The notes under the pieces are model-generated. The model had not been told where the DNA came from. It was given only the letters and a program-made list of their open reading frames with translations, and made no database searches. Made by a program: the position numbers and the translations under genes. A DNA stretch of 64,000 bases from Acidobacteriota bacterium (lineage in GTDB: Bacteria; Acidobacteriota; Blastocatellia; UBA7656), in assembly GCA_040754075.1 (NCBI GenBank), contig JBFMDH010000029.1, positions 1 through 64,000 of the forward strand. The letters run 5' to 3'. Positions 20,718 through 47,420 of the stretch are shown piece by piece (within the stretch, counting starts at the first letter, position 1; every line of letters starts with the position of its first letter).

Positions 20718-23700
20718 TCAACGGTTTGCGTTCACCTGAAAGACCAGATTGAGCATATCCAGCAAAGGTTGCGTAAGCGCCGCATCGAGTGAAGAGAAAA
20801 GTCCTATCTCAAAAATCAACAAACCGCCGGTTGAGGATGCGCCGGAGGTTAACGCGGTAATCGTTGTGACAAGTGTCGCCACAAAATCGGGATCATTCAA
20901 GTTGTACGCATACAGCGGCACAAACAGCACAGGCAGTTTGCTGATTAAACTCGTCAATCCGGCTCCCGAATTATCACAAGGATTGCTGCTCGTTGTTGAA
21001 GCAACCAGTTGATAGCCATACTGACAGGTGAGTTTGATATTGTGAGAGTTGCCGCTGGTGTCGGCGCTGAACAGGTCTTTAAATACCTGATTCAAACTGG
21101 CAGCCAAATCATCGCCCTGGTTAATTAAAATACAACTGGTGTTGCGAATGAGCGGGGTCATCATATTTGAAAAACGCACCAACGGCGTTTGATAAATAAA
21201 CGCCGGATTGGTCGCCGCAAAACTCACCAGATTCTGATTGCGCGAAACGTAAACCCCGCCCCAGGCATTTTCGGTCATCACAATATCGAGTCCGTCAAAT
21301 TCAACCACCTGTTTCACCTGTCCGAAAGCCGCCACCTGATTCACAGAACTTTCGCCGTCAGGGTATGAATAAACCCGAACGGTTGTGCCGCCATCATCCG
21401 GCAATTGATAGATGACCACATTGCCGGTCACTTTATCGGTGGTATAGACAAAAATTTTCGACGGGAACATTGCCGGTTGATTTGCGAATGGCGTCACCAC
21501 CAGTGACGCGAGATACCCTGAACCATCCGATGCGAGAAGCGATTCCAAACTGAAATTATAGGTTTGTTGCGTCAGTCCTTGTGCCGCATCAAGCAGCCCA
21601 CCCGATTGCGAAGCATTGGTGTAAGCCAGCCAGGCATTGGCAACCGCAGTAATCAGTTGATTGAAGATATTCATCGCCGCCAGCGCCGTCCCGTTCTGGG
21701 TTCCCGGTTTCCAACCGGCGAGTTGCGCCAGATCGGTTTTCAACACCGGGTAGACGCTGCTGAACTGAGCCAGCGCATTAAATAACGTTTCAAAGCATTG
21801 CGCGGCATCATTCACATCGGTCAACAAAACGCCTCTTGCCATTGCCGACTGCGGCGCGCTGTTGAACGTGACACTCAGATAATCCGTATCCTGCGCGGCG
21901 TCCTGTCGCACATAGGTCATCGCATAGTTCCACATCTTCGCTTCATCAACGCTTTGGGCTTGCGGATACTCGCTCTCGCCGGTTTGCGAAATCAATGAAG
22001 GCGGCGTCGGATAGGAACGCAACGGCAACGGAACTTCAACCTGCCCGATGTAGGAATTGATGTTCTTTAATTCGCTCACCGTCGAATCAATCGGAATGAT
22101 GAACGAAAGCCAGGACGATGCCTGATAGTCGCCAATGTTTGCAGCGCCGCTTTGAATGTCGTATTCCATTTCATTCATCACATAGTTCAAATCCAGAAAC
22201 AGCTTTTTGTATTGCGCGATGGATTTGCTGTTGAACATAAAATTCAACAACGAACCGCTGTTCGATAGCGGCGCTTTCGAGGTTGAAAGCGTGAAATCGG
22301 GAATCACTTGAACCGCATAAACGGTTGTGTGGGTATTGAGCAATCCGCTTTGTGTTGCAAGGTCGGATGCCAGGGTCTCGGCATCCATCGGCGGATTGAA
22401 TTTTTGCCCGACTTTATAAAGCGTATCGCCTGCAACCACCGGAACCGTCTGGTTATTCACGCTGATGCTGCTTACCGAAAAAATATCCGGCAGGTTTTCG
22501 TTGGCAAGGGCAACCTCTTTCACACTGGCATTGAAATATTCCGCAAGCGAATCAAAGGTATCGCTTGCGGCAATCGCTTTACTGATTTGCGCGATATTGA
22601 TGACGATGCCTGGCGCAAATAATCCGCCACCGGCAGTCACCTGTAAATTCGCCGCTAAATTCTCAACATCGGTTTTGTAATAGGCAGCGATGGTTTGCAA
22701 AGTGACTAAATCAATTGGTGTTTGCATGGCATCGGCAATCTGTTGAATGGTCGCGCTCTGTCCGTTCAAACTCACGGTCGCCGCTTTGTTGAGGATGCGG
22801 GTTAAATCATCAATCACACCCGCGAGATATTGCTCACTCACATTGAATGCCTGAGCGATGGTGGCAATCACATCGCTTGCCCCGGTGGTGTACATCATCA
22901 CATTGGGATTACCGGAAAGACGCGGCGCGGTGTCCGGGTCGGCAAACGGCGATTGCACACTCACCGGGTATTGAATAATCGAATCAATCGCGTAACCGTT
23001 CGATAGATTGATGAGCAGTTGTTGATACAAGGCTTCTTGAGCGGCTTTGAGCGCCGGGTCGTTCGGCACAGGCGCATTCACATTCAAAATATAATCGACG
23101 CTATTTTGCAGAGCTTCAGCAAGGTTGGCTTTCGCCGCAACCACTCCCGTATAAGCCGCGTGTTGCGGGTCAAGTCCATAAGCCGGTACGGCAAATTCCG
23201 GCGCGAGGAAATTATCTACGGCTGCGAGAAAATCGCTCACCCAAATATCCAAATCGACAGCCTGAAAATTTTTCGGCGTCGCCGGTTGCAGTTGTCCCTG
23301 ACTGTAATCCTGAATCGGAATGTTTGACCGCGAAATCAGTTCGGTTGCCAGCGGTTTGATAGCATAAAAACCCGGCGACTGATTTTGAATCTCGAACTCA
23401 CTGAAGCCATTGGCGCTGAAATTGACTGCAAACAATGGCGGCGCGCTGTTGGCATTTTGCCCTTCAACGTCTTGTTGCCCGGTGGCAATCTTCAACCCGA
23501 CAAAGGCTTGGGTTTCAAATGCCAGCGCGAAATCACCGAGATTCAATGCCTGTCCGTCAGACGCGCTGCTGCGCGGCGCAATCGTCGAACGATCCAAGGC
23601 AACGCCTGTCACATCGACATAATCGTTTGGCGGCGTAGTTTTGAATTCCGGGTCAATCAAATCGGCGTCGCGCTGCATTTCCAGTTTCACATCCACAGGG

Positions 23701-26700
23701 AAAATGATGTCGGGGTAAGCGGCGGTAATCGGTTGATTGATGACGGCAGCATTGGGCGGCAATAAAAACGGCGCATTGGGCGCAACCAAAGTGTTGATGG
23801 TTTGATTGGCAATCACTAAATCATCAATGGTCGTCGTCACACCGGATTCCAGATTAAAGCGCGTGATGAGCGACACCAACGTATCATTGGCGTTGGTCAC
23901 TAAATGAATGCCCTGTTTAGTGAACTCGGTTTGATTCGGATAGACGGTGACGCCTGCCTGCAAAAATCCCTGCAACGTGCTGTTGACCATTCCCAAATCA
24001 TTCAATGAAGTCAATTGATAGGCGCTGATGATTTCGGCAAGCGATTGGGTGACGACAGGCGTTGTCGTGGTCGCAGCTTTCACTTGTGGCAGGTTGCAAA
24101 CCAAAAAGGCATTGGCGGCAATGAGTCCCGGCAGGCTTTCGATTTGCGTGGCGAAATCGGCAAGCGACATCTGCAAACCTTTTGCCGCAAACGCCGCAAG
24201 CAAAGTGTTGAAGGTATCGTAATCGCCAATCGGAACGGTGATGTTGCTCAGGGTAATTGATTTGCCCGATGCAAAAATCCCCGTGAGGTTTTGATTGGCA
24301 TTGGCTAAATCGGCAACCGATTCATCATAAAGCGCAATAATGTCTGAGAGTTTTTCGTTGCCGCTCGCTTCATAGAATGAATAGAACGGTCCCTTTGCCG
24401 AATCGATTGTAACCAGACTGGGAATCGCTAGGGTTGCGCCGGTCTTCAAAGCGGTCACCGCATTGGCGACCGCGAGTTGTTGCAAGGTGATATAGTTGTC
24501 GCTGGCAATCGTCGCAAGGGTTTCGCCATCGCTTAACGGCGCGGCATTCGATTTTTCATAAAGCGCATCGCCTGCGGTAAAGAAATTCGCGACCGTCGCG
24601 TTCAAGCTGACTATCTGCGCCAGGGTGATTTGTGGGAATGCCGCAAATTCCGCAAGGATGCTTTGCACGCTGTCGCCCTGTTGAATCACATAGTCGTTGA
24701 TATTAATAGTTGCAGATTCCACAAAAACGCCTTGCAAATTCTGGTTGGCAACGGCGACGTCGGCAACTTCCACGTCAAGGTTTTGCCCTTGCAACTGGGC
24801 GTTGAAATAATTGGCGAGGTCTTGCAAAGTGGCAATCACTTTGCCGGTGTTGGGGTCAGTCGCGCCGGTCTGAATGCTCAAGCCTTGATAGGTATATGTG
24901 ATATTGGTCGCCAACAGATTCGTGGCTGTGGCATTAGCGCAGGCAAGCCCTGCAACCGAAGCGAAATTATTTTTTGCAACGCTTGCGAAGGTGTTGTCCG
25001 AGGCTTCGGCAAATTGCAAAGCGCTTGTCCGGTTCGGCAGCGCGATGACGGTTGCGGTATTTAAAACCGCTCCCTGATTTTGCGTCACCATTGGCAATGC
25101 CTGAATGCCGGTTGCCGTTTGAATGGTGGTCAAAGTGTCGCCTTGTCTGACGATGTAAAACACCGGGATTTGAATAGTGGAAGCGAAGAAGCTATTGGCA
25201 TCGGTATTTTGATTGGCGGCAGCAAGGGCTTCAAGCGTCGCCGCGTCATCGCCCGCTTTGCTGCCAAAATAAATTTCGGCAATCGCAGCAAACGTGTCAC
25301 TGCCACCAATCGAATGATTGTACTGCTGCAACCACATCGCGGTTGACAGGAAAAGATATGCCGAATTGATAAAGTTGGTCAGCGCGTTTCTTTGGGCAAT
25401 GGCGTAGCGGGTTGGCAAAACCGTTGGCGAGGTCTGGCTCATCGTCGTGCTCAGATAAAACGTCAAATCATAGTTCTGCGTTTGCCCGACCACCTGTTTT
25501 TGTTGCACTTGATAATAGAGCTGGCGGTATTTTTCCTGATGGGCGCTGGCGCTATAGACCGCTGTTGCGAAGGGATTGCCGGGGATAGGAAGGTATTTTG
25601 AAACGTCGAGACCGATTTCAACATTCAACAGCGGCGCGTTGTTTTGCGAAGTGAACTGATAGGAACTCGCAATTCCCGCCCACTGCGAAAGCCCTATGAT
25701 GGTGTCGAAATAACCAACCGGAATTTGCAGATTCGCTATCGGTTTATCGGGCGGCGTGCGATTGCCGTAGATGTCCTGAAACGCAAAACTGAAGGTCGCC
25801 GCGCCGAGTTGATTGGCGTCGCCGCTTGCCACTTTGGTGATGCCCGCATAAGGATTACTGGCTGCGTCCGGCAATCCGCTGGCAACCGGAACATTGTTGA
25901 GTTGCGCGAATTTGTAAATCGGCACCACCTGTTGGAAGTCCCAAACCGTATCATCTGTCGATTGATTTGCCGGAAGCGGCAGCCCGCCGGTTTGCGTCGG
26001 GTCGGGTTGCACGGGTCCAACCGGCGGCATCTCGCCGCTATCTGAAAACAAGATGTCGCCGACGATTTCAAATCCGAGCAGGTTATAAAGCGATTGCGTC
26101 AGTTGCTCAGGGGATTCGGGATTTTGTTCGGGGTTCGGGCGCGTCAGTTGGAAACCGATATTACCGGCAGTAACGGTTGTATAAGGCGCAGTATCGCTGC
26201 CATCGCTGATTTCCGCAAAGACATTGACTTTCGATGCATCAATATTATCGCCAATCACCGCCGAGTTATTGAAAGCATAGAGCGTGCGACTCGGACTCGC
26301 GGCATTGCTTTGTGAAGCGAGTAACACCACCAACCAAAGAGTCGCGGTGTTGCCGTTTGCGAAAACGCTGTCGGGAAGTCCCGCGCCGCTTTGGCTGGCA
26401 TAGTTGATATAGAATCCGCCGGTGCCAACGATGCTGCCTTCCCAGAGAAATTTCAAAACATCAGTGGCATCGTTGAAGTTGGCATAATAATCGCCGGAGT
26501 CGGGAATGCCGGTTTTCAACATCGCGATATTTTCAAGGCTTTCACCCACAGGGCTATGGGTTTCAGTCGAGAGATTGGTTTTCAAAATATAGGTATTCGT
26601 GAGGTCAAGCACATCCGATGCATAGCCGTTGTTATTGGCGCTTGAAGCGTTCGGTTGATACAACAGGGCGAGCGTCGCGCTGTCTTTAGTTGAAGGATTG

Positions 26701-29700
26701 GTGAGGTAATTGTAAATCTCTCTTAGCAAATCATTGCCGGTCTGGTCTGCGCCAACCCATAGATAGGTGTTCGGCAAATAGGCGTTGGTGGTTTGCGATT
26801 GAATGCGCGACACATTGAGTTGAATGGCGGTCGCCCAGTAATAATTCTGCACCGGGTTGGTCTGCATCACCGGCGAGTTCACATAACTGCCGCTGATTAA
26901 ATCAAACGGCGCGGGATTAGTTAAGCCTTCGACTTTGGCAATCAGGGTGTCCGGCAGTAACCAGACCGTCGGTTGTCCGGCATTACCGCTTTGATTCGGG
27001 AAGAGCGAAGTTTCAGAAACCTGCCAGATGAAATTTTTGTCTAGCGTGTAACGCACAGGAACATCCTGTAAAAGCGGCATGCGTTCGGGACCCGTGCTGA
27101 TATCCGGCGAAAACGTCGTGCTCGGATAATCGCCGGTCGTTGCGCTGGTGAGTTTGATGACGATTTCATTTGCCGGAACCGTGAGCGTCGTTCCTTGCGC
27201 CACGGGGTTTGCAAAATTGACGTTGGGATTTAAGGCGACAATTTGCGGCGCGGGAACGCCGACGGCTGCGGCAATCTCGGCAAGCGTCATCTGATTTGCC
27301 AAAGTGTAGGTGCCGGTCGGCATGAATTCGACCCATTCGGCTTGCCCTGTATTCTGGAAAGTAATATCGAATTCGTTAGTGATTGTAGACGGCACGGCGA
27401 ATTGTTGACCGGTCATTTGATAAAGCGGGCAGAGACTGGTCGATTCGGCAATCTGGTCTTTGAAATGTTGAATGGTCAGTTTGAAATCATTTGCGGTTTG
27501 CGGGTTTGGAATGCGCATGCCGTGAAGCATAAAGCGCGACACCATCGCCGCCATATTATTGAAATCGCCATTCGCGATGAGATACGAAAGCAGCGTTTGA
27601 ATATCGATGGCTTGCAATCCGGCAATCGTTAAGGTTGTCGTGGTCGGCACAAAAACATCAGGCGTGGTTTCGACCATCTCTGCGAGTTCTTCGAGGTTGA
27701 AATTATAAAGCGCGGCAATTTTGGCAAAGGTTTCGCCTTCGGCAATCGGATGCGAGACGTTGGCAATATCGAGAATCGCAAGCGGCGCAAGCAAGCTCGT
27801 GGATTGATTATTTGCGGTCGCTACGTCAACCGCTGCGCCAAACAAATTCCCAAGAATATTGAATGAATCGCTCGGCGCAATCTGATGTTGCAATTGCGGA
27901 ATGTTGATGGTCGCGGGCAACGGACTCAGGGTTGAATTCGCGGCTTTAATATTATTTTCAATCGCTGTGAGTTGTGATGGTTCGAGTTCGGTTAAGAGGA
28001 AATATCCTGCCACTAAATCAAGCGTATCACCGGCTCTTGAAGTATAAGTGAAGTTCTGCGAAGCCGGTTGTTGCACCACGCCTTCATCGGTAAGCACAAC
28101 CGTCGGAATCGTCAGCACTGTACCCACCGGCAACGGTTGAGTGAAATCGACGTTGGGATTACTACTTTGACTGAGTTCAAGAATGACCTGACGCAGCCAG
28201 CCAAATAACGGGTCGATTTGATTGGCAACCGGAATCGCGAAATGGGTCGCGGCAATGTTTGCGAGCGTATCGCCGCTTTGTACGGTGTAGGCGGTGTTGT
28301 TTCCGACAACCACGATGCCTTGCGCGTTGATGGTCAGTTGCGGAATCTGTAGTTGCGCGCCAGCGGTCAGCGGATTGCGGAAATCAATCGTGTTGTTGGA
28401 ATCAATGATGAGTTGGGTGAACCATCGCAGGTCTCTCGCGTCAGGGCTTTCGAGATTGCGAACTAAATAATATGCCGCAATGAAATCAAGCGTGTCGCCG
28501 GTTTGCGTGGTGTAGGTCGTCGCCGGGTAATTGACAATGGCGTTCAACTGAAAGATGGAATCGTTTGCTCCGTTTTGCGCGACGATGCCGGTGTTGCCGT
28601 TAAAATTCGCGGCAATTTTCGCGAGCGTATCACCACTCTTGATTTGATATTTGACGATGCGTTGCCCACCGTCGGTGTATTGAATACCTAAATTGGTCAG
28701 CGTGGTTTTGGTATTGAGCGCGACGTCTTGATTGGCGAAAGCGATACTCGTAGCCGTGGTCGCATACGACAGATTTTTCACCATCCCGTCTAAAGAATCA
28801 CCCGGTTGAACCTGATATTGATAGGCATTGAGCGCATCGATTGCCGCCTGCACCGCCGATTTGGCAATCATAAAAAAGTAATCCCGGAAAATTACTGTCG
28901 CGAGTGATTGCGGCGCGCTGCCGGTTGGTTGTTCAGCGGTTTGCTGTCCACCGTTATTTTGAAACGGGTCTTGGGCGACATTCGATTCGGCGTTGGCGAG
29001 TCGTTCCTGAAAATAATTACTGAGATTTGTTTGATACTGCTCATCAACCATGGTCTGCGAATTGAAATTCACCGTCGCGTTAGTTCCCGCAATCATCGAC
29101 AGGTCTGGAATCATCGGAAAGATGGTGGCGCTGATTTCGGCTTGCGAACTATCGGCGGAACCGGTCACTTGAAAAGTGAAATTTTTGCCGATAAACGCCG
29201 AGAGGTTTTGATAAATCGTCACCCCCGGTTGCGCAAACACGGTTTGCTCGGCATCGGGCGCAGTGAGCGCATTGTAAATATTTTGCAAATCCGTTGCGGC
29301 AATCGTCGTGTTCAAATTTTGTGTAAGCGCATTGATCGTCCAGGCGAGCACGCCGTGAACCAAACGATTGAATGGCAGTTCCGATGCGTCGTCGCGCAAA
29401 ACTTTTCTGGTGTCTTTTGATGAGGTGAGATTCAGGGGCAAGCTGTTCTCGACAAACGGCAGCATGACGGCTTGAACCTGTGGCGTCGTATTGGTTGATG
29501 ATGAACATTCGGGAATGGCGACGGTGAACGCCGGAACCAAAGCCATCGCCAGATTGAAGGTCTGATTACCAAAGACATTCACCGGCTGCCAGTTCAAGGT
29601 CACTGGCGTTGTGGCAATTTGCGCGGCAAGCCCTTTGCGCATGACGGCGCGCGCAAGCATCTGCGGTTGCAATGCCTGTTGGTTGCCATCCGAGCCGGCG

Positions 29701-32700
29701 ATAGCCCAAGGCGTCGGTTGTGTGTGCCCGATGGTAAACGACAGGTTCAAGGTCATGCTGAATTTGAAATGAATGCGAATGAATAGAATTTTCACGCTGG
29801 CTTCGACCGAAACGCCTGCCGACAAACTGATGAGAATTGGCTTATAAGATTCGATGGTTAGCGTCGCGCTTGCGTAAGCCACAATGCTGATGCTCACTTG
29901 AATAATGACAAAATTAACCGTGCCGTAAACTTTTCCGACGATGGAAATCGTCCCTTGAATCCAGTAATAGCGGTCGCTTGGCACTGCCTTGTCATTCGGA
30001 TTGAACCAGCCAATGACGCCTTGCAGAATGCCTTGCACGGTAAGCGACGCGCCCGCTGACAAGACGCCTTCATCAATGGTTTTGCCGACGCCAAGCGATA
30101 GCCCGATGCCGAATTCGATAACCGGATTGAAATTGCCATTGGTGATTTTCGGCACCCGCGTCGAGGTATCGCCATTGAGTAAGGCGAAATAAAATCCGCC
30201 GTAACCGACAAACGGAAACACCTGCACGCTGAAGGAGCGCGAAAAGTCGTTATTCCACGGGAAGCCGAAATCAATGCGGAAATTGCCATTGGTATAAATA
30301 TCGATGACGATGATGGGAAGCGTTACCGAGACTTCACCAAATTCGAGATGGCGCATGGCATCCGGCAATTTGAGTTCGATGTGATAAACCCCGATGGTAT
30401 CGGTAACTTTTTTATAAAGGATTTCAAATTGCAATCCGCCGAAACTGCCCGCCTTTGCGCCGCCCAGCGCAATGAGCAAGCCATAGACCTGCGGGTCATT
30501 GAAAACCACTGCCAGCGTCACGGTTCCCATCACCGTGAATTTCGTGCCGATTAACCAATTGCTGTTCTGGCTGAACGATAATCCTTTGAGTTGCGCGAGT
30601 GGATTTTTCGAGGCGTCATCGACGGGTTGCAACATCTGTTCAAGGGCGTTGATGACAGCGGTGACATTATCAAGCCCGGTGGTATCGATGGCGATATGTT
30701 GCCCGATGCCGAGGTATTCCATATCAAGCAGCGCCGCGCCCGCGCCGGGTGTTGCCGGTGGCTGGTCGTTGAGTAAATCCCATTTCAAAGGATTGTTCTG
30801 GTCATAAGTGGTGCCGAGGAAATCGCCGCCGAGTTCGATGTCAACCGTTCCTTGACCGAGTTTTTTGGAATAGGTCAACTTGATAAACGATAATTTAATA
30901 ATAAGCAAATCAATCGGGCTGCTCGGCGTATATGCGATGCTGACATCTTTGGTGGTGAGGTTGATTTCCAGCGAGAGGTTTTTAAGCGCAATGTCATTCA
31001 AGACATCCCAGGGGGCGCTCAGTTTAAAATCGGATTTGTGTTCAACCAGACCAACCAGATATTCAATCATTTCGCCGACATTTAAATTACCGATGCTGAC
31101 CGTGAGAATTTTCTGCGTCGTTTGATCAACGGTTTTGCTGGTCAGCGTACAGCTCAAGGTTGTGCCGCGAAAATTTATCGAAAAACTCAAGGTGGTGTTG
31201 TTGGATTGAAATTGATAACTGACTTTGACATCGAGGTCATTGACTTTGAATTCACCCTGTACATAACCGGAATAAGTGGGTGTTGCCTGCGGGTTGGCGC
31301 GCGCCGATTGCAGGCTGAATGATGCATCAATTTCAAATGGGTGATTTTCAATTAAGTTGAGTTGCCATTGAATAGCGGCGCTGAATGAATAGGTATTGTC
31401 CTGAGTGTTGAAAGAAGCCGCGAGTTCCGTGATGTCGAGATTCTGCAATTCCGAAGGAATAGTCAGGTTCCAACTCGATGGCAGAAACATTTTCACTATA
31501 TTGACGAGCGGCAGTTTTTCGCCGGGAGCCATCGCCCCGGAAAAAATCCATCCGCCGCCACCATCCGGCTTTTGCGCTGTGAGAATAAAGTCGGTATCGA
31601 GAAAATTGATTAAGGCATCGAATTCACCCGATAGCGCCGTCTGGTCGTAAACAATATTTAGTGACACCTGCTCTAAGGACAGTTCCGTTACTCCGAGCGG
31701 TATCGTCCAGCCTTTGGGATATTCGTCCGAAACCGTATCAATGGTTGCCGAGAATGCGTAGGACTTGCTTGTCGGTTGCGCCAGCATGTTGAGTTCGGTA
31801 ATTGTCAATGCATCATTGGGAAGCGGCAGATCACCGACGAAATGTTTAATGACCTGAATGACCGGAATGGTATTACCCGGCGGCAGAAATCCTTGAATCG
31901 TCAAATTGGGCAGCGAAATCATCATGACGATATCGAAATCGCCGACGATGGTAAACGTTGCCGCAAACTTCGCTGCGATATTCGATAGCGAGGGTTGCAA
32001 TGGGTCAGGGATAAGAAAACTGACGCTGATGTCATCAAGGACGATGATATTCGGAGGAATAATCGCCCAGGATAAATCTGCCAGCGCCACCCCGATGTAC
32101 AGACTGACAATCTCTTTGCTCTCAGGAGAGATGGCGATGGAAAAATTGGTAATTTTAAAATGATTGCCAAGCGGATATTCGGACGGAATCAAACTATTCA
32201 AATCGCCGCCGGAAACCAACGAGGATAAATCGGACAAACCGGTTAAGAGCAATTTCGTTGGGTCGAGATGCTCAAGGTCTAAATCGAAAGTGATGATGGC
32301 GGGCGGCGATTCCCATAGTTGCATGATGATGGGAATGGCGATGGCGCTTCCCAATTGAATCGTCGTGATGAGCGCCGCGGCGGTTTCCAGAGTAGAGGTG
32401 CCGTCGGTGGTCGTGGTGGTCGCGGTCACTGAAATAACTACCGAAACATTTACCGCGCCAAGCGAGATCGTCGAAGGCAACGCGGCAGTTTGCAGATTCA
32501 TATCGGGCGCTTGCGTGAGGTCTGCAACATTCGTGAACGTGCCATTCAAAACAGGCGCAGATGAGGCGCTGATGAGCCAATCAATCGGCGCAATCGGCGC
32601 GGAATCATTGCGCAGAGTGCCGATGAAATTGAACCCTTGAACGACATTGGGATATTGATTGGAACCGTCACTGGTATAGGATTCGATAACGAATACCGCG

Positions 32701-33101
32701 TTATCAAAAAACAGGGCATCGATTAACTCTCCGGCGAGTTTCGGAAAGGCTTGCGAGAAATTCCATTGGCTGGCGTTTTGAAAAATTGCCAGCGTCAATT
32801 CGGGCGTGCCATCCGTAGCCGAATTCACCAGATAAAACGTTGCGACGGCACGCAGCGTCTGTTGATTCAGGTTGAAAGTTCCCTGATAAACCAGCGTTTT
32901 ATCGGTTTGCGAAGTCAATTGAAAATCATCAATGACTAAACTCATTTTATCGGGCGGCGAAGCGGTATTACCGGGAATGGCGTTCTCAATCAGATTGGTG
33001 ATGTCGGTTGAGTTCAGCGTATTAACCGCCGGTAAACTCAATTGATTGGTGTTTGGTGAAATATAGGCGCTGAGATTATTTTTGAGGGTTGTCAGGTTCA
33101 T
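20718..33101 (-). CDS. Giant 4,127-residue LysM-repeat protein
   Basis: One uninterrupted gene of 12.4 kb. The start ATG has GAGAGGA upstream; no signal peptide. Residues 1-1,200 are beta-rich with repeated strands; about 960-1,150 form a conserved block (GYGGFYFALLNGD, YYWIQGTISIVGKVYGTVNF) that looks related to the DUF6603 family. From about 1,425 to 3,570 there are roughly 20 LysM-like modules, the clearest being VQPGDSLDGMV, IKSGDTLAKIAANF, TQTGDTLDFIAAYY, VQSGDTLANIAATHF, VRQGDTLTTIQ and VVAGDTLYKVGQKF. Many are followed by an AVANQNL-like turn. About 2,000-2,570 and 3,600-4,127 are unassigned. LysM binds N-acetylglucosamine glycans such as peptidoglycan. It is the last and largest gene of the 20-kb operon. 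The function is not known to me. Confidence 0.85.
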   Translation of the reverse strand: MNLTTLKNNLSAYISPNTNQLSLPAVNTLNSTDITNLIENAIPGNTASPPDKMSLVIDDFQLTSQTDKTLVYQGTFNLNQQTLRAVATFYLVNSATDGTPELTLAIFQNASQWNFSQAFPKLAGELIDALFFDNAVFVIESYTSDGSNQYPNVVQGFNFIGTLRNDSAPIAPIDWLISASSAPVLNGTFTNVADLTQAPDMNLQTAALPSTISLGAVNVSVVISVTATTTTTDGTSTLETAAALITTIQLGSAIAIPIIMQLWESPPAIITFDLDLEHLDPTKLLLTGLSDLSSLVSGGDLNSLIPSEYPLGNHFKITNFSIAISPESKEIVSLYIGVALADLSWAIIPPNIIVLDDISVSFLIPDPLQPSLSNIAAKFAATFTIVGDFDIVMMISLPNLTIQGFLPPGNTIPVIQVIKHFVGDLPLPNDALTITELNMLAQPTSKSYAFSATIDTVSDEYPKGWTIPLGVTELSLEQVSLNIVYDQTALSGEFDALINFLDTDFILTAQKPDGGGGWIFSGAMAPGEKLPLVNIVKMFLPSSWNLTIPSELQNLDITELAASFNTQDNTYSFSAAIQWQLNLIENHPFEIDASFSLQSARANPQATPTYSGYVQGEFKVNDLDVKVSYQFQSNNTTLSFSINFRGTTLSCTLTSKTVDQTTQKILTVSIGNLNVGEMIEYLVGLVEHKSDFKLSAPWDVLNDIALKNLSLEINLTTKDVSIAYTPSSPIDLLIIKLSFIKLTYSKKLGQGTVDIELGGDFLGTTYDQNNPLKWDLLNDQPPATPGAGAALLDMEYLGIGQHIAIDTTGLDNVTAVINALEQMLQPVDDASKNPLAQLKGLSFSQNSNWLIGTKFTVMGTVTLAVVFNDPQVYGLLIALGGAKAGSFGGLQFEILYKKVTDTIGVYHIELKLPDAMRHLEFGEVSVTLPIIVIDIYTNGNFRIDFGFPWNNDFSRSFSVQVFPFVGYGGFYFALLNGDTSTRVPKITNGNFNPVIEFGIGLSLGVGKTIDEGVLSAGASLTVQGILQGVIGWFNPNDKAVPSDRYYWIQGTISIVGKVYGTVNFVIIQVSISIVAYASATLTIESYKPILISLSAGVSVEASVKILFIRIHFKFSMTLNLSFTIGHTQPTPWAIAGSDGNQQALQPQMLARAVMRKGLAAQIATTPVTLNWQPVNVFGNQTFNLAMALVPAFTVAIPECSSSTNTTPQVQAVMLPFVENSLPLNLTSSKDTRKVLRDDASELPFNRLVHGVLAWTINALTQNLNTTIAATDLQNIYNALTAPDAEQTVFAQPGVTIYQNLSAFIGKNFTFQVTGSADSSQAEISATIFPMIPDLSMIAGTNATVNFNSQTMVDEQYQTNLSNYFQERLANAESNVAQDPFQNNGGQQTAEQPTGSAPQSLATVIFRDYFFMIAKSAVQAAIDALNAYQYQVQPGDSLDGMVKNLSYATTATSIAFANQDVALNTKTTLTNLGIQYTDGGQRIVKYQIKSGDTLAKIAANFNGNTGIVAQNGANDSIFQLNAIVNYPATTYTTQTGDTLDFIAAYYLVRNLESPDARDLRWFTQLIIDSNNTIDFRNPLTAGAQLQIPQLTINAQGIVVVGNNTAYTVQSGDTLANIAATHFAIPVANQIDPLFGWLRQVILELSQSSNPNVDFTQPLPVGTVLTIPTVVLTDEGVVQQPASQNFTYTSRAGDTLDLVAGYFLLTELEPSQLTAIENNIKAANSTLSPLPATINIPQLQHQIAPSDSFNILGNLFGAAVDVATANNQSTSLLAPLAILDIANVSHPIAEGETFAKIAALYNFNLEELAEMVETTPDVFVPTTTTLTIAGLQAIDIQTLLSYLIANGDFNNMAAMVSRFMLHGMRIPNPQTANDFKLTIQHFKDQIAESTSLCPLYQMTGQQFAVPSTITNEFDITFQNTGQAEWVEFMPTGTYTLANQMTLAEIAAAVGVPAPQIVALNPNVNFANPVAQGTTLTVPANEIVIKLTSATTGDYPSTTFSPDISTGPERMPLLQDVPVRYTLDKNFIWQVSETSLFPNQSGNAGQPTVWLLPDTLIAKVEGLTNPAPFDLISGSYVNSPVMQTNPVQNYYWATAIQLNVSRIQSQTTNAYLPNTYLWVGADQTGNDLLREIYNYLTNPSTKDSATLALLYQPNASSANNNGYASDVLDLTNTYILKTNLSTETHSPVGESLENIAMLKTGIPDSGDYYANFNDATDVLKFLWEGSIVGTGGFYINYASQSGAGLPDSVFANGNTATLWLVVLLASQSNAASPSRTLYAFNNSAVIGDNIDASKVNVFAEISDGSDTAPYTTVTAGNIGFQLTRPNPEQNPESPEQLTQSLYNLLGFEIVGDILFSDSGEMPPVGPVQPDPTQTGGLPLPANQSTDDTVWDFQQVVPIYKFAQLNNVPVASGLPDAASNPYAGITKVASGDANQLGAATFSFAFQDIYGNRTPPDKPIANLQIPVGYFDTIIGLSQWAGIASSYQFTSQNNAPLLNVEIGLDVSKYLPIPGNPFATAVYSASAHQEKYRQLYYQVQQKQVVGQTQNYDLTFYLSTTMSQTSPTVLPTRYAIAQRNALTNFINSAYLFLSTAMWLQQYNHSIGGSDTFAAIAEIYFGSKAGDDAATLEALAAANQNTDANSFFASTIQIPVFYIVRQGDTLTTIQTATGIQALPMVTQNQGAVLNTATVIALPNRTSALQFAEASDNTFASVAKNNFASVAGLACANATATNLLATNITYTYQGLSIQTGATDPNTGKVIATLQDLANYFNAQLQGQNLDVEVADVAVANQNLQGVFVESATININDYVIQQGDSVQSILAEFAAFPQITLAQIVSLNATVANFFTAGDALYEKSNAAPLSDGETLATIASDNYITLQQLAVANAVTALKTGATLAIPSLVTIDSAKGPFYSFYEASGNEKLSDIIALYDESVADLANANQNLTGIFASGKSITLSNITVPIGDYDTFNTLLAAFAAKGLQMSLADFATQIESLPGLIAANAFLVCNLPQVKAATTTTPVVTQSLAEIISAYQLTSLNDLGMVNSTLQGFLQAGVTVYPNQTEFTKQGIHLVTNANDTLVSLITRFNLESGVTTTIDDLVIANQTINTLVAPNAPFLLPPNAAVINQPITAAYPDIIFPVDVKLEMQRDADLIDPEFKTTPPNDYVDVTGVALDRSTIAPRSSASDGQALNLGDFALAFETQAFVGLKIATGQQDVEGQNANSAPPLFAVNFSANGFSEFEIQNQSPGFYAIKPLATELISRSNIPIQDYSQGQLQPATPKNFQAVDLDIWVSDFLAAVDNFLAPEFAVPAYGLDPQHAAYTGVVAAKANLAEALQNSVDYILNVNAPVPNDPALKAAQEALYQQLLINLSNGYAIDSIIQYPVSVQSPFADPDTAPRLSGNPNVMMYTTGASDVIATIAQAFNVSEQYLAGVIDDLTRILNKAATVSLNGQSATIQQIADAMQTPIDLVTLQTIAAYYKTDVENLAANLQVTAGGGLFAPGIVINIAQISKAIAASDTFDSLAEYFNASVKEVALANENLPDIFSVSSISVNNQTVPVVAGDTLYKVGQKFNPPMDAETLASDLATQSGLLNTHTTVYAVQVIPDFTLSTSKAPLSNSGSLLNFMFNSKSIAQYKKLFLDLNYVMNEMEYDIQSGAANIGDYQASSWLSFIIPIDSTVSELKNINSYIGQVEVPLPLRSYPTPPSLISQTGESEYPQAQSVDEAKMWNYAMTYVRQDAAQDTDYLSVTFNSAPQSAMARGVLLTDVNDAAQCFETLFNALAQFSSVYPVLKTDLAQLAGWKPGTQNGTALAAMNIFNQLITAVANAWLAYTNASQSGGLLDAAQGLTQQTYNFSLESLLASDGSGYLASLVVTPFANQPAMFPSKIFVYTTDKVTGNVVIYQLPDDGGTTVRVYSYPDGESSVNQVAAFGQVKQVVEFDGLDIVMTENAWGGVYVSRNQNLVSFAATNPAFIYQTPLVRFSNMMTPLIRNTSCILINQGDDLAASLNQVFKDLFSADTSGNSHNIKLTCQYGYQLVASTTSSNPCDNSGAGLTSLISKLPVLFVPLYAYNLNDPDFVATLVTTITALTSGASSTGGLLIFEIGLFSSLDAALTQPLLDMLNLVFQVNANR

Positions 33102-42327: not shown

Positions 42328-43509
42328 ATGTCGAAAACAGTTAACCGAAAAACCGATTTATTGCCGATTCGTTTAACGCTGCTGATCATTCTTGCCTTGC
42401 TTCCCTTGCAGGTTAGCTTCGCAAAACGCCCGGCAGCACAGGCATTTGAAGTCACTGCCGTAACCCTTGCGTCATCCCCGACCCGATACGAAGGTCCTTG
42501 CCCTGGGGTCATAAAATTTTCCGGCTCGATCACCGTCAATGGCAGAGGCACCGTCAAGTACACCTTTGCCCGAAGCGATGGAGCCACAGGACCAGTCTTC
42601 ACCCTCAATTTCGATAGGGCGGGAACCAAACCCGTAGAGACGACCTGGACGTTAGGCGGCGCTGCGTTGCCAACCTTCACAGGATGGGAAGCCATCCGCA
42701 TTCTGTCACCCAAACCGATGATGTCGAACAAAGCCGGGTTTACCTTAACCTGTCAGCGAGCCGAGCCTTTCCGGGTGACTGCTGCCAGGCTTTCAGCTTC
42801 GCCACAGCGATATGAAGGTCATTGCCCCGGCATCATCAAATTCCCCGGAACGATTACTGCAAACGGCAAAGGAACGGTTAAATACACCTTCCTGCGCAGC
42901 GATAATGCAACCGCGCCGGTCTTTACGCTGGTCTTTGACGAGCCGGGCACGAAACCGGTGCAGACCACCTGGACGCTGGGCGGGGCGACATTAAAGACCT
43001 ACAGCGGCTGGGAGGCAATTAAAATTCTGTCGCCGAACGTGATGGAATCCAACCGCGCAACCTTTGAACTGATATGCGAACAGCCGCAGCCGGTCGCGAA
43101 ACTCGATCTTGCGGTCGCCAAAGAACTCATCAAAATCGGTGGACAAGTGGGCGGCGCTGGCGCGAAGAGTGCGATTAGCGGCGGAACGATTACGCTCACG
43201 GGTGCCGATTCATTTCTGCAATCGGGAGGCAAGTGCGCTTTCAATATCACCTACACGGTGGTGAATTACGGCACGGTTGCCTCAACTCAGTTCATCAATC
43301 GTATTCGTTGCGATAATGAAGTGGTCAGCATTCAAAGCGACGTATCGGTTCCCGCCGGAGCTACTCGACAAATCAATACGCAGGCTTACCTGCCGCCCGG
43401 TGTGCATGTCTTGACGCTTTCGCTTGATGACGAACACACCATTGCTGAGGCCAACGAACTCAACAATGTCATCAAAATCAAGATAATCGTCAACTGTTCG
43501 AGCGAGTAA
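42328..43509 (+). CDS. Secreted protein with a tandem domain duplication and a CARDB-like C-terminus
   Basis: 393 residues. The start has AAGGAG upstream, followed by a signal peptide (about 1-33). Two homologous modules of about 95-100 residues follow, at about 40-140 and 148-250. They share YEG-CPG-IKF, GTVKYTF-RSD-AT-PVFTL, GTKPV-TTWTLGGA and GWEAI-ILSP. Each has two cysteines that could pair. The C-terminal 130 residues look like a CARDB/Ig-type fold (DEHTIAEANELNNVIKIKI). It is probably an extracellular adhesive or binding protein. It precedes the inhibitor and protease genes on the same strand, with a 179-bp gap to the inhibitor. Confidence 0.7.
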   Translation: MSKTVNRKTDLLPIRLTLLIILALLPLQVSFAKRPAAQAFEVTAVTLASSPTRYEGPCPGVIKFSGSITVNGRGTVKYTFARSDGATGPVFTLNFDRAGTKPVETTWTLGGAALPTFTGWEAIRILSPKPMMSNKAGFTLTCQRAEPFRVTAARLSASPQRYEGHCPGIIKFPGTITANGKGTVKYTFLRSDNATAPVFTLVFDEPGTKPVQTTWTLGGATLKTYSGWEAIKILSPNVMESNRATFELICEQPQPVAKLDLAVAKELIKIGGQVGGAGAKSAISGGTITLTGADSFLQSGGKCAFNITYTVVNYGTVASTQFINRIRCDNEVVSIQSDVSVPAGATRQINTQAYLPPGVHVLTLSLDDEHTIAEANELNNVIKIKIIVNCSSE

Positions 43510-43688
43510 GCCATAAATAAAAACATCCCGGCTGCTCAAGCGGTTGGGAAAACCTGAATGTGCCTGAAGAATTGACAACGACCCTCCTTTGATACAACGC
43601 CCGGAGTTGCTGGAAACAATCTGGTGACACTTGCGGAAGGAGGAATCCGAGCCTCTGCTTCAGGAAGGTTTGTGAGAGGATGGCTATC

Positions 43689-44114
43689 ATGCAGAAACGA
43701 CGAAATCAGGTATGCGGTCTGATTATTCTTTTAATCGCCGGTTGCTCCGGCATATCCGCACAGAACAAGTGCTCTGACACTTCTGCAAAATGTCAGACGA
43801 TAACGGTCACCGATAAAGACAATGACGGCAAAATCACGCTGAAGCCGGGCGACCGGCTCATCATCAAACTGGAGATGCGAGCCGGCACCGGCTACAACTG
43901 GGAAATCGCCAAAAATGATTCCGCCAGATTGATGCCCATTGGTGAACCGACAGTTGAAAGCCCGGAAGAAGTGCCGGGCGCAGTGGAATATCAAATTTTT
44001 CAATTCAAAGCCAAAGCGACCGGCGCTTGTGTCGTCGAGTTGCACTACCTGCGCCCCTGGGAAAAAGATGTCGAACCTTTAAAGAAATTCAAACTTGCGG
44101 TGCAGATAGGTTAG
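43689..44114 (+). CDS. Chagasin-type (I42) cysteine-protease inhibitor, lipoprotein
   Basis: The start is the ATG at 43689, nine bases after GAGAGG; an ATG at 43680 abuts that site and is less likely. The product is 141 residues, with a signal segment ending LIAGC (lipobox, cysteine near 19). The mature part shows chagasin features: a beta-sandwich beginning LKPGDRLIIKL, the loop GTGYNWE (counterpart of NPTTGY-W), and RPWE (the RPW loop). Chagasin family members block papain-fold proteases by inserting these loops in the active cleft. The next gene encodes a papain-family protease, so the pair is probably an enzyme with its own inhibitor protecting the cell envelope. Confidence 0.8.
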   Translation: MQKRRNQVCGLIILLIAGCSGISAQNKCSDTSAKCQTITVTDKDNDGKITLKPGDRLIIKLEMRAGTGYNWEIAKNDSARLMPIGEPTVESPEEVPGAVEYQIFQFKAKATGACVVELHYLRPWEKDVEPLKKFKLAVQIG

Positions 44115-44130
44115 CGCGCCACGCTTTGCC

Positions 44131-44152
44131 CTCATCCTCGCGTAAGGATGAG
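44131..44152 (+). promoter_or_regulatory. 8-bp-stem hairpin between inhibitor and protease genes
   Basis: CTCATCCT at 44131-44138 pairs perfectly with AGGATGAG at 44145-44152 across a six-base loop. It sits 16 bases after the inhibitor stop, with no T-run following, so it may set relative expression of inhibitor and protease rather than terminate. Confidence 0.4.
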
Positions 44153-44304
44153 TATGGTTATGCGTGGCTACGGTCACGGCAAAGCGCCTGGTCTATGGTT
44201 TGGCGTGAACCGAAGAAAGCGACCTTGGGCGATGAAGTCCATCAAAGTCACAAAGAGTTTTCTTCAACCGAGCCATTTGAAGTGGCTTGAGAAAGAGAGG
44301 ATTT

Positions 44305-45396
44305 ATGAAAAACTTTCGAGCATTATCTATATTGACTGTAGCTTTGCTGATGTTGGCGAGTTTGCCGCTGCCCATCAGCTATTCACAACAGATTGATTAT
44401 GCACAACGCGAACGGCAAGCGCCTCCCGCCATACGAGCAACGCTTGCAACCCTTCGCAATGAAATTCAAACCAAGCGGTTTACCTTTCAGGTAGGCTACA
44501 CCTTAGCCGCGGATCGCAATCTGGAGCAACTGGCAGGCTTAAAACCGCCGACCAATCTGGCAGCGATTGCCAACAAACAAAACGCTCTGGCGGTTCAACT
44601 CCTGCGCATCGATAACGCCTCGCGCGAGGAATATGCCAGATTGAATCCCAATGTCAAACTGCCCGAACTGTCGCTGCAATGCAATCCTTCTGCGGCAGCT
44701 TTTGATTGGCGAAAGCTTGGCAAGGTGACGCCCGTGCGCGATCAGGGAGGCTGTGGAAGTTGCTGGGCGTTTGCCACCATCGGAGCCTATGAAGGCAGCT
44801 ATCTGATACGCAATGGCGGAAGCCCGGATGCCAGCGAACAGGATGTCCTCAGTTGCAGCGGCTTGGGCACTTGTGCCGGCGGGTGGTGGGCGTTTGATTT
44901 TCTGCTCGGCAAAGGCGATGCGTCAGAAGCCAGCTACCCTTACACGGCAACTGATAGCCCCTGCAATGCGTCGATTCCAGACCCGTATTGGGCGACGACC
45001 TGGGGGTATGTGAAACCCGGCGGCGCAACCCCATCGGTGGGTGAGATGAAACAGGCGCTGTGCCAATACGGCCCGTTAGCAGTTGCGGTTCGCGTCACCA
45101 CCGCGTTCAGGCATTACACGGCGGGCGTGTTCAATGAAAATGCTTCCGGTTCGGTCAATCACGGTGTCACGTTGATTGGTTGGGACGATACCAAAGGCGC
45201 GTGGTTAATCAAGAATTCCTGGGGCACTGGCTGGGGCGATACCTGTGGGTATGGCTCACAACGCGGCTATATGTGGATTACCTATGGCAGCAACAGCATC
45301 GGTTATGCAGCAGCTTGGGTGCGGGCGAAGAGCCGGTATTACAAATTGCCGGACACCTATTACAGATTGGTGCCAAAGATTATCCCGACCCCGTAA
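44305..45396 (+). CDS. Secreted papain-family (C1A) cysteine protease
   Basis: The start is the ATG at 44305 behind AGAGAGG; an in-frame TTG at 44287 is less likely. 363 residues: signal peptide about 1-28, a propeptide-like region about 29-130, then the catalytic domain. All catalytic elements are present: Q147 (oxyanion hole), C153 in GGCGSCWAF, H286 in VNHGVTLIGW, and N304 in IKNSWGTGW. Extra cysteines suggest disulphides and export. The propeptide lacks a clear ERFNIN motif. It follows the chagasin-like inhibitor (190 bp) and precedes the short peptides with GG leaders, making it a candidate processing protease for them (inference). Confidence 0.88.
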   Translation: MKNFRALSILTVALLMLASLPLPISYSQQIDYAQRERQAPPAIRATLATLRNEIQTKRFTFQVGYTLAADRNLEQLAGLKPPTNLAAIANKQNALAVQLLRIDNASREEYARLNPNVKLPELSLQCNPSAAAFDWRKLGKVTPVRDQGGCGSCWAFATIGAYEGSYLIRNGGSPDASEQDVLSCSGLGTCAGGWWAFDFLLGKGDASEASYPYTATDSPCNASIPDPYWATTWGYVKPGGATPSVGEMKQALCQYGPLAVAVRVTTAFRHYTAGVFNENASGSVNHGVTLIGWDDTKGAWLIKNSWGTGWGDTCGYGSQRGYMWITYGSNSIGYAAAWVRAKSRYYKLPDTYYRLVPKIIPTP

Positions 45397-46079: not shown

Positions 46080-46259
46080 ATGGCTACGAATGAAACGATT
46101 GAAATGGACGACCTGGAACCGGTTGGTGAGGTCAAGGGTGGCACAACCATCGCGTCCGTTACCGATTTAACCATAGACCCCTTTAACAGCAGCACCTCAA
46201 GTAGCAGCCGCCATCCATCTGGAATAAACGTCTGTTTGAGTGATGGTTCTGTACGTTAA
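46080..46259 (+). CDS. GG-leader peptide 1 (RiPP precursor-like, 59 residues)
   Basis: Start ATG with AAGGAG six bases upstream. The leader of 21 residues is acidic and ends MDDLEPVGEVKGG. The core is threonine/serine-rich: TTIASVTDLTIDPFNSST, then a serine run, with a single cysteine near residue 52. The leader matches the three peptides downstream, which identifies the four as a family. With one cysteine it cannot form several lanthionine rings. It is the first gene of the peptide operon; a weak hairpin (CCCGC/GCGGG) lies between it and peptide 2. Confidence 0.65.
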   Translation: MATNETIEMDDLEPVGEVKGGTTIASVTDLTIDPFNSSTSSSSRHPSGINVCLSDGSVR

Positions 46260-46328
46260 GGCAAAGCGTATAACCCCCGCTTTTCGTGATGAGGGGCGGG
46301 TTTATTTAATTTAGAGGAGAAACTAATA

Positions 46329-46532
46329 ATGAAAATGACTGAACAGAACAAACAAGACATTAACCATGAAAATGGGCTTAGTGACCTGGAGCCGATAGCC
46401 AATGTAAAAGGCGGGAACACAACCTGGACGGGAAGCGTCACCCTTAACGCAAACACCGCCGTTGGTGTCACCTATACCAGTAGAGAATCAACTTTAACCT
46501 ATAGTGGAGAGTCAGGTGGAATAAACGAGTGA
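46329..46532 (+). CDS. GG-leader peptide 2 (RiPP precursor-like, 67 residues)
   Basis: Start ATG with GAGGAGA nine bases upstream. The leader is about 29 residues, ending LSDLEPIANVKGG. The core begins NTTWTGSVTLNANT and contains many threonines and serines but no cysteine. That opening is shared with the core of peptide 4. The alternating pattern suggests beta-strand formation. Modification, if any, is unknown, since no modifying enzyme is adjacent. Confidence 0.65.
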   Translation: MKMTEQNKQDINHENGLSDLEPIANVKGGNTTWTGSVTLNANTAVGVTYTSRESTLTYSGESGGINE

Positions 46533-46624
46533 GCGTTTTCGCCGCCAACTTACGCCTGAACAGGTGAGCGCCAGTGAGGCGCTCAAGCGATGAACAGCTT
46601 ATCAATGAAAAGGAGACAACCGTG

Positions 46625-46780
46625 ATGAACAAGCAAGACAAACAAGAGCCAGACAACCACCAATCGGTGATTGAGGATTTGACCCTCAGCGAAGACCAGG
46701 CAGCAGAACTCAAAGGCGGCCCGGTCGACCATACCATTGAGGTCTACTTTCACGTGATTGATGCAACTCGCAATCGGTAA
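46625..46780 (+). CDS. GG-leader peptide 3 (RiPP precursor-like, 51 residues)
   Basis: Start ATG at 46625 (GTG at 46622 is an alternative) with AGGAG upstream. The leader is 32 residues, with VIEDLTLSEDQAAELKGG at its end. The core of 19 residues, PVDHTIEVYFHVIDATRNR, has no cysteine and is more charged and aromatic than the others. The leader match to peptide 4 (VIEDL...KGGP) is the strongest in the set. Confidence 0.65.
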   Translation: MNKQDKQEPDNHQSVIEDLTLSEDQAAELKGGPVDHTIEVYFHVIDATRNR

Positions 46781-46800
46781 ATAAAAAGGAGAGTGAATCA

Positions 46801-46944
46801 ATGAATCAACCAGAAAACGATAACTCGACGGTCATCGAAGACCTGCCGGTTGATGAGGCGCGGCAGGATCATGTCAAAGGCGGTCCCACTAACACGTATA
46901 CAGGAGTGACGACCATAAACGCCGGAACCTTGACCATCAGATAG
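46801..46944 (+). CDS. GG-leader peptide 4 (RiPP precursor-like, 47 residues)
   Basis: Start ATG with AAAGGAG upstream. The leader is 28 residues, with VIEDLPVDEARQDHVKGG at its end. The 19-residue core, PTNTYTGVTTINAGTLTIR, lacks cysteine and shares NT-[WY]TG-T-NA-T with peptide 2. It is the last gene before a strong terminator at 47004-47034, so the four peptides form one transcript. Confidence 0.65.
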   Translation: MNQPENDNSTVIEDLPVDEARQDHVKGGPTNTYTGVTTINAGTLTIR

Positions 46945-47003: not shown

Positions 47004-47034
47004 CACCGGCTGGTTATCAGATGACCAGCCGGTG
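47004..47034 (+). terminator. Rho-independent terminator of the peptide operon
   Basis: CACCGGCTGGT at 47004-47014 pairs perfectly with ACCAGCCGGTG at 47024-47034 (11-bp stem, nine-base loop), followed by CTCTATTTTA. It lies 60 bases after the stop of peptide 4. Confidence 0.8.
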
Positions 47035-47096: not shown

Positions 47097-47420
47097 AATC
47101 CGTTTACCAATCCTGAAACCGGCAAGAAGTATGTAAGCATTTTGCGCGCGTGGGCTGTAGTCTGCCGGCTCGCCAAGCTAAGCGACCTGCACGTTCACAA
47201 CCTGCGCCATACCTTCGGCACCCTAGCGATTGAAAATGGCGCGACCTTACCGGAGATAAAAGAAGTGATGGGGCATAAATCCATCACCTCAACTGAAGGT
47301 TATGTTCACGCCACGGAAGCTGGTAAAAACCGCGCGGTTGAGGCGGTTTTACGAAAGCCCGGTCACATTACGGTCACACGGGAAGAAATAGAGAAACGAT
47401 TGAAGATTGTAGATGGTTGA
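47097..47420 (+). pseudogene. Tyrosine recombinase (phage-type integrase) C-terminal remnant
   Basis: The surviving frame begins after a stop near 47096 with FTNPETGKKYVSILRAWAVV and contains the catalytic HNLRHTF (H and second R), MGHKS and the tyrosine in TEGYVH. The N-terminal DNA-binding domain and the first catalytic arginine are missing, so it is a broken gene. An internal ATG at 47142 could start a 92-residue product, but it would not be a working recombinase. It ends 10 bases before the tRNA 3'-end fragment at 47431, the usual neighbourhood of an integrase and its attachment site. Confidence 0.8.

Follow-up and report, generated by a model that had tools for sequence, protein, structure and literature searches.

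Double-glycine precursor peptides of an acidobacterium with cores resembling segments of unrelated protein families

What is made from four short genes that lie in tandem and share a leader, by which route could the products leave the cell, and what might they do outside it? The genes are located in a stretch of 64,000 nucleotides, here called the window, on contig C29 of an acidobacterial genome (7.58 Mb, 68 contigs) near that of Chloracidobacterium sp. UBA7656, a member of the same family. The original prediction described them as a RiPP-like precursor array with good ribosome sites, different cores and a strong terminator at its end. All four ORFs are present at positions 46080-46944, all on the plus strand, and the array is organized as follows.

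46080..46259, plus strand: precursor peptide 1 (59 aa), with leader MATNETIEMDDLEPVGEVKGG and a 38-aa core whose C-terminus, HPSGINVCLSDGSVR, is the DUF1559 H-X9-DG motif
46276..46300, plus strand: terminator-like hairpin between peptides 1 and 2
46329..46532, plus strand: precursor peptide 2 (67 aa), with leader end LSDLEPIANVKGG and a 38-aa Thr/Ser-rich core
46625..46780 (GTG alternative start at 46622), plus strand: precursor peptide 3 (51 aa), with leader end IEDLTLSEDQAAELKGG and core PVDHTIEVYFHVIDATRNR
46801..46944, plus strand: precursor peptide 4 (47 aa), with leader end IEDLPVDEARQDHVKGG and a core that is a PATR, or autotransporter beta-strand, repeat
47004..47034, plus strand: terminator-like hairpin 3' of the array, with 14 pairs and a T-rich tail

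Each of the four genes has AAGGAG or GAGGAG 6-9 bases 5' of its ATG, in agreement with the ribosome sites described. The terminator at the end of the array was found as well, together with the second hairpin between peptides 1 and 2; the stretch has five terminator-like sites where 1.8 would be expected, and a single promoter-like site, which does not exceed expectation. The leader had been given the form [MI]xDLxxxE...[VL]KGG. DL and KGG are common to all four peptides, but the motif is looser than that, peptide 2 having LSDL, and the DL-to-KGG spacing is four residues less in peptides 1 and 2. These shorter leaders (DLEPVGEVKGG and DLEPIANVKGG) resemble the leader DLETRDDVKGG of peptide c5d. 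With a shared leader ending in KGG and differing cores, the reading as a double-glycine precursor array holds. Directly downstream of the array, positions 47142-47420 encode 92 aa from the C-terminus of an integrase of phage type (PF00589, E 1.1e-11), and upstream of the array (42328-45396) a CARDB protein, a chagasin-type protease inhibitor and a papain-type protease are encoded in series. On its minus strand, the window also has a single 4127-aa open reading frame (20718-33101).

The term RiPP-like did not find support. The three large genes that were scanned at the array locus on contig C5 of the same genome encode an HlyD protein, a foldase-like protein and a transporter, and many cores look like stretches of ordinary proteins. 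No modifying enzyme was found among these three genes and the six non-precursor ORFs scanned in the window. It is correct that the four window cores hold one cysteine between them, and lanthipeptide or other RiPP chemistry was considered unlikely on account of this single cysteine and the lack of a modifying enzyme among the scanned genes. The motif CxxxCxxC is absent from all 23 listed window ORFs of at least 200 aa, and the four window peptides gave no match to NHLP or Nif11 leader domains in Pfam (E <= 0.1) or NCBIfam (E <= 10). Bacteriocin IIc family PF10439 has no match in the genome at E <= 0.001.

We then asked how far the leader extends beyond the window. With a leader profile, 16 sites scored E < 0.001; they fall into four arrays (four each on C29 and C23, five on C5 and three on C10), which gives the genome at least 16 precursors. 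Of these sites, 15 had been used to build the profile, and the sixteenth, C23:63232, which had not, scores 4.9e-6. Two further candidate precursors, c5f and c10z, have variant leaders. When a profile made from 15 non-window leaders was run against the six frames of the window, peptides 4 and 3 were recovered with E 2.3e-9 and 3.3e-8, at 34.8 and 31.1 bits, compared with a best score of 10.0 bits in 20 codon-shuffled windows. Peptide 1 (E 2.4) was outranked by an unrelated frame (position 48221, E 1.9), and the profile missed peptide 2, so that the window peptides have an acidic leader ending in GG which an independent profile recovers only in peptides 3 and 4. In the reverse test, the four window leaders were made into a profile, and this recovers three C23 leaders (E 1.2e-5 to 6.9e-4). 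Outside this genome, leader matches occur in 2/7 genomes of the family and in 2/8 of the order, these being the same two genomes, and in one of 396 genomes of a phylum sample at E <= 0.001, which is the host genome itself (UBA7656 is evidently outside the sample). Absence of the leader from other genomes, which would have spoken against the original prediction, is thus seen only in part: the leader recurs in three more arrays and in UBA7656, but the phylum sample returned the host only. A close relative of window peptide 3, with core PVDHTIEVHLHVIRR, is encoded inside the transporter locus of UBA7656 (L042, 8024-8167). The UBA7656 array (L042, 7900-8170 and 10705-11037) also contains a start-less leader tail (DEQADETKGG) directly after a precursor and one ORF with two leader-GG units, which, judged from their sequences, look like signs of recombination at the leader end.

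The original prediction had stated that the window lacks a C39 transporter, and had left chemistry and export open. Indeed, the window ORFs of at least 80 aa yielded no relative of the C39 transporter, HlyD or isomerase described below. A putative cognate C39-peptidase ABC transporter and an HlyD protein are encoded on C5, with precursors beside them: an array of five precursors lies between an HlyD gene (PF13437, E 4.5e-16) and a divergent gene for a 314-aa protein, followed by a gene for a 1044-aa transporter. The latter contains cyclic-nucleotide domains at its N-terminus (PF00027, E 2.7e-38, two cNMP stretches), a C39 peptidase (PF03412, E 2.2e-33) and ABC transporter domains. No Pfam match below 0.06 was obtained for the 314-aa protein, which is assigned to the SurA type by fold only: the best structural matches of its model (mean pLDDT 96.0) are the foldases SurA and PrsA, with a top E of 9.4e-5 and whole-length TM-scores of 0.2-0.4. 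UBA7656 has the same gene order with extra genes in between, the transporters being 84% and the 314-aa proteins 60% identical to those of C5.

When GTDB genomes were scanned with the N-terminal 452 residues of the transporter as query, seeded by two short patterns, 79 transporter loci were obtained. Judged by record title, 53 of them are Verrucomicrobia-type; the remainder come from Gemmatimonadetes, Acidobacteria, Hydrogenedentota and other groups. Relatives of the 314-aa protein are present in 70 of the 79 loci and HlyD in 53, many loci being cut short. The Verrucomicrobia-type loci L054-L114 have the same module, but their leaders (DLKPxKDAKGG, for example) precede cores that are rich in Gly and repeat-like, so that the product is of another kind.

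Based on gene content, the C39-ABC/SurA/HlyD module of C5 is most likely the exporter of the peptides, and the likeness of the leaders suggests that the window array may use the C5 transporter. Export is thus partly answered and no chemistry need be assumed; since no modifying enzyme is present among the genes scanned at C5, the cores are probably exported unmodified. We therefore regard the peptides, with considerable confidence, as predicted exported peptides.

Related exporters are known. PteB is the C39 transporter of the Synechococcus EbfG proteins. The bacteriocin clusters of cyanobacterial groups I, II and VI contain SurA, a long C39 ABC transporter and HlyD (Wang, Fewer and Sivonen 2011, PMC3140520), and that paper describes the same combination as here of a long-type transporter with nucleotide-binding domain, SurA, HlyD and double-glycine precursors with diverse cores, many of them unannotated. 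Hundreds of double-glycine peptides are known; in the passages of the paper that deal with them here, their cores are given only as diverse and Gly/Cys/Ser/Thr-rich, with no likeness to other families mentioned (PMC3140520), whereas many of the present cores match family segments. A Nostoc plasmid carries an annotated set of cyclic nucleotide-regulated exporter, HlyD and PpiC-type isomerase, the same exporter type; its four tandem GG proteins are near-identical, unlike the differing cores here. The small double-glycine proteins EbfG1-4 of Synechococcus are needed for biofilm, and a matrix role is shown for that organism (PMC9981879; PMC4997328); their likeness to the present peptides lies in the small double-glycine type.

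The cores do differ, as had been noted, but the first reading overlooked their likeness to segments of unrelated families. We collected 38 cores (18 from the host genome, seven from UBA7656 and 13 from one acidobacterial, two gemmatimonad and one hydrogenedentota genome), with lengths of 14-38 residues in the host and 14-46 over all. Family likeness was found for 17 of them, including 10/18 in the host and 2/4 in the window: eight resemble the tube protein Hcp, four the DUF1559 pseudopilin, two RTX, and one each PATR, DUF5908 and an injection-system ATPase. The other 21, window peptides 2 and 3 among them, match nothing by the tests used. Members of the H-X9-DG/DUF1559 and Hcp families are complete proteins, whereas the cores that follow an export leader here are mere pieces, 14-46 residues long.

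In the window, the core of peptide 1 matches TIGR04294 (H-X9-DG, E 9.8e-7), over the cut-off, and positions 228-259 of PF07596 (E 0.0034), below it; that of peptide 4 matches TIGR02601 (PATR, E 4.6e-6), over the cut-off, and PF12951 (E 1.8e-5), just below. Elsewhere, c5d matches the start of DUF1559 (E 9.7e-6), c5e DUF5908 (E 3.3e-5), c5a the start of Hcp (E 0.0028), c10a and G6e RTX (E 1e-5 and 4.2e-5) and c10b an AAA Walker A segment (E 0.0047). Curated cut-offs are passed by the TIGR04294, TIGR02601, c5d and two RTX matches and by none of the other family matches. Single core matches are weak, as expected of short pieces, and several lie below curated cut-offs. The best PDB matches of L052a and c5a are PA0085 (E 0.43) and EvpC (E 0.24), both of which we take to be Hcps, and neither is significant alone; c23b gave no PDB match. 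Over 21 residues, core c10b shares 81% identity with an ATPase from a Serratia plasmid, where the neighbouring genes encode a tape-measure and a sheath protein of a contractile injection system. In a plasmid search, c10b matched ATPases (86.4% at best, E 3e-4) and c5d matched DUF1559 (76.5% over 17 residues, E 0.2). That search gave one weak match each for c23b (E 0.7), c23d (0.7) and c5b (9), four for window peptide 2 (E 8-10) and none for c23c. Tentative readings of G6h, c23d and c23b as dockerin-like, BNR-like or esterase-like, some of them based on weak matches, were left uncounted, as were c5b and c5e as Hcp despite nominal p values of 0.033 and 0.027.

Could such short likenesses arise by chance? 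Local models were built from 29 Hcps, including the host's own (L127, a wrong ORF, was dropped), and from 21 pilins (L139 dropped). On the Hcp model, none of 1000 shuffles reached the score of c5a, c23a, c10c, L052a, L128 or L102a, and shuffle p values were 0.002 for L046 and 0.003 for L102b; on the DUF1559 model, 0/1000 reached those of window peptide 1, c5c, c5d and L102c. None of 16 control cores fell below p 0.05. Control cores came from other collected peptides with near-duplicates omitted, and were picked after the cores had been read, not blind. A second set, of 25 control cores, gave no Pfam match up to E 0.5; it includes the single 8-residue gemmatimonad core from L103 and a planctomycete one from L106, both outside the 38. 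Chance likeness was rejected on the basis of these shuffles and control cores.

The reading frame was examined with 25 of 39 cores (the 38 plus the start-less G6h). The omitted ones, of which some are matches and some not, are c5e, c5f, c10c, c10z, G6b, G6e, G6g, four of L051 and three of L102. In frame, the 25 cores gave seven Pfam matches at E <= 0.005, one of which, a ferredoxin transit peptide match of L102c, is probably spurious. The 125 other-frame translations of the same DNA gave no Pfam match below E 0.2. When six frames of nine array stretches were run against the Hcp model, the top eight rows all came from seven cores, covering model zones 6-27, 8-21, 16-33, 45-64, 46-64, 100-119 and 113-139, and the next row, another frame, scored 2.6 bits; L102b, at 1.6 bits, is within noise in this test. 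On the pilin model, the top four rows were the four DUF1559-like cores, with the next at 1.7 bits. There were no Hcp or DUF1559 remnants above noise in other frames of the nine stretches, and decayed full-length fusions were rejected for this reason.

These results bear on the possibility that the peptides are by-products of shuffling: short pieces of coding sequence would be caught by a leader cassette through recombination, and the majority of the resulting peptides would serve no selected function. The start-less leader tail and double-leader ORF of UBA7656 fit this explanation, as do the neighbouring peptides c5c and c5d, which carry adjacent DUF1559 segments (model positions 25-39 and 46-62), and the multicopy nature of some parents (52 PF07596 matches in the hydrogenedentota genome, G400). 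However, random capture should place most fragments out of frame or antisense, where the 125 translations gave no match, and it was rejected on that ground. Moreover, the motifs DGSVR, DGTSNT and LLPA-Q are spelled with different synonymous codons in different genes, with serine from both codon boxes, and the likeness has therefore been kept at the protein level. GC content is host-like (leaders 0.475, cores 0.510, window 0.501), which together with the codons led us to reject recent DNA copying. Also against shuffling, two cores from two phyla cover nearly identical zones of the Hcp model (45-64 and 46-64), with a common end point. Taken together, we consider the shuffling explanation unlikely, and hold with high confidence that the family likeness of the cores is real.

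This likeness has to be accounted for by any reading of function. Double-glycine pheromones of Gram-positive bacteria use C39 transporters, and each core might accordingly be a signal sensed by relatives of the producer. Such a role would leave the resemblance to Hcp or pilin segments without a reason, and we judge it very improbable.

Another question is whether the producer possesses the parent proteins itself. In the host genome, PF07596 finds nothing at E <= 1 except two of the GG-leader peptides, and the c10b segment, matched in three of six relatives (G002, G004 and G005), gave no other match in its own genome. The LLPA[VI]Q form of the hydrogenedentota core L102c is in none of 20 pilins extracted from the same genome. 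No Hcp genes were found in two further genomes with Hcp-like cores (completeness not given), where the sole Hcp matches at E <= 1 are a GG peptide in one and a match of E 0.9 in the other. The host has two Hcps of its own, one in an apparent T6SS locus, which rank 17 and 26 among the 29 for c5a, 20 and 28 for c23a, and 12 and 28 for c10c. Own-genome misses of the joined-core search are weak evidence, because the own Hcps likewise went unreported by it. The host also has a pilin (L244) with the blocks LLPAIQ, GDGSVRF and ISDGTSNT (TIGR04294, E 3.4e-4), to which c5c is identical at 9/14 positions, by eye. Because of these two Hcps and this pilin, the cores are not strictly non-self.

Unusually placed blocks resembling DUF1559, Hcp, RTX or BNR were seen in this pilin (L244, 6891-8021) and at L245 (7443-10598, UBA7656), L246 (6758-9597, G002) and L247 (7069-7593, G156). 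The proteins concerned look exported: in G002, a 164-aa protein has HTNWILIESVS and SDGSVRFI and a 310-aa protein has LLPAVQK near its end; in UBA7656, a 314-aa protein has GDGSVR, DGTSNT and an RTX-like run; and in G156, a 174-aa protein has GDGSVRM, and LIGLLLPAIQN at its extreme end. The neighbours of the L245-L247 proteins are, by eye, presumably an ECF sigma factor and a Ser/Thr kinase. Such blocks in relatives' proteins are a possible wider pattern.

That the own pilin and these relatives' proteins carry the same DUF1559-type blocks would fit peptides of the surface or biofilm matrix, which as strand or helix modules would assemble on the producer's own surface, like EbfG of Synechococcus. 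Most parent families of the cores form extended assemblies, and the likeness to Hcp, PATR, RTX and pilins would then reflect common assembly-prone segments. EbfG double-glycine proteins are surface and matrix proteins, and EbfG1-3 form amyloid (PMC9981879). Yet the cores within an array are wholly different, as against the four near-identical tandem proteins of the Nostoc locus, and neither the AAA Walker A nor the DUF5908 segment is of a type known as surface material. We regard both the surface role and this account of the likeness as doubtful.

The explanation that we favour is that the peptides are exported interface mimics, to which as a whole we give about an even chance. In such a mechanism, the C39 domain would cut each precursor after GG and the ABC-HlyD conduit would export unmodified cores, of 14-38 residues in the host genome. 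The cores would be selected mimics, acting outside the cell as loose strands or helices, and would pair with parent-type proteins of neighbouring bacteria, whose assembly would thereby be blocked or capped. Antagonistic interface mimicry is ranked first because the parents are mainly assembly proteins that seem often to be missing, or of another subtype, in the producer. From what the sequences suggest, the antagonistic role is a tentative proposal, possible rather than probable; surface assembly and non-functional shuffling rank closely behind it. Mimicry of surface targets has against it that an AAA ATPase is no surface protein.

What is new is the content of the cores, many of which resemble segments of unrelated families, also in gemmatimonad and hydrogenedentota genomes; this points to an undescribed use of mimicry. 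A literature search that covered few subscription journals found no account of double-glycine peptide cores resembling DUF1559 or Hcp segments. It is conceivable, if rather unlikely, that several phyla run an exported repertoire of protein-fragment mimics, each a copy of some conserved segment, that jam tubes, pilins and other assembly proteins of other bacteria; the producer would then escape harm by lacking such proteins or having them in another subtype. Should many cores prove to be selected pieces of named assembly proteins, the sequence alone would tell what they target, their function would become directly testable, and natural inhibitors of contractile tubes and pili might be found among them.
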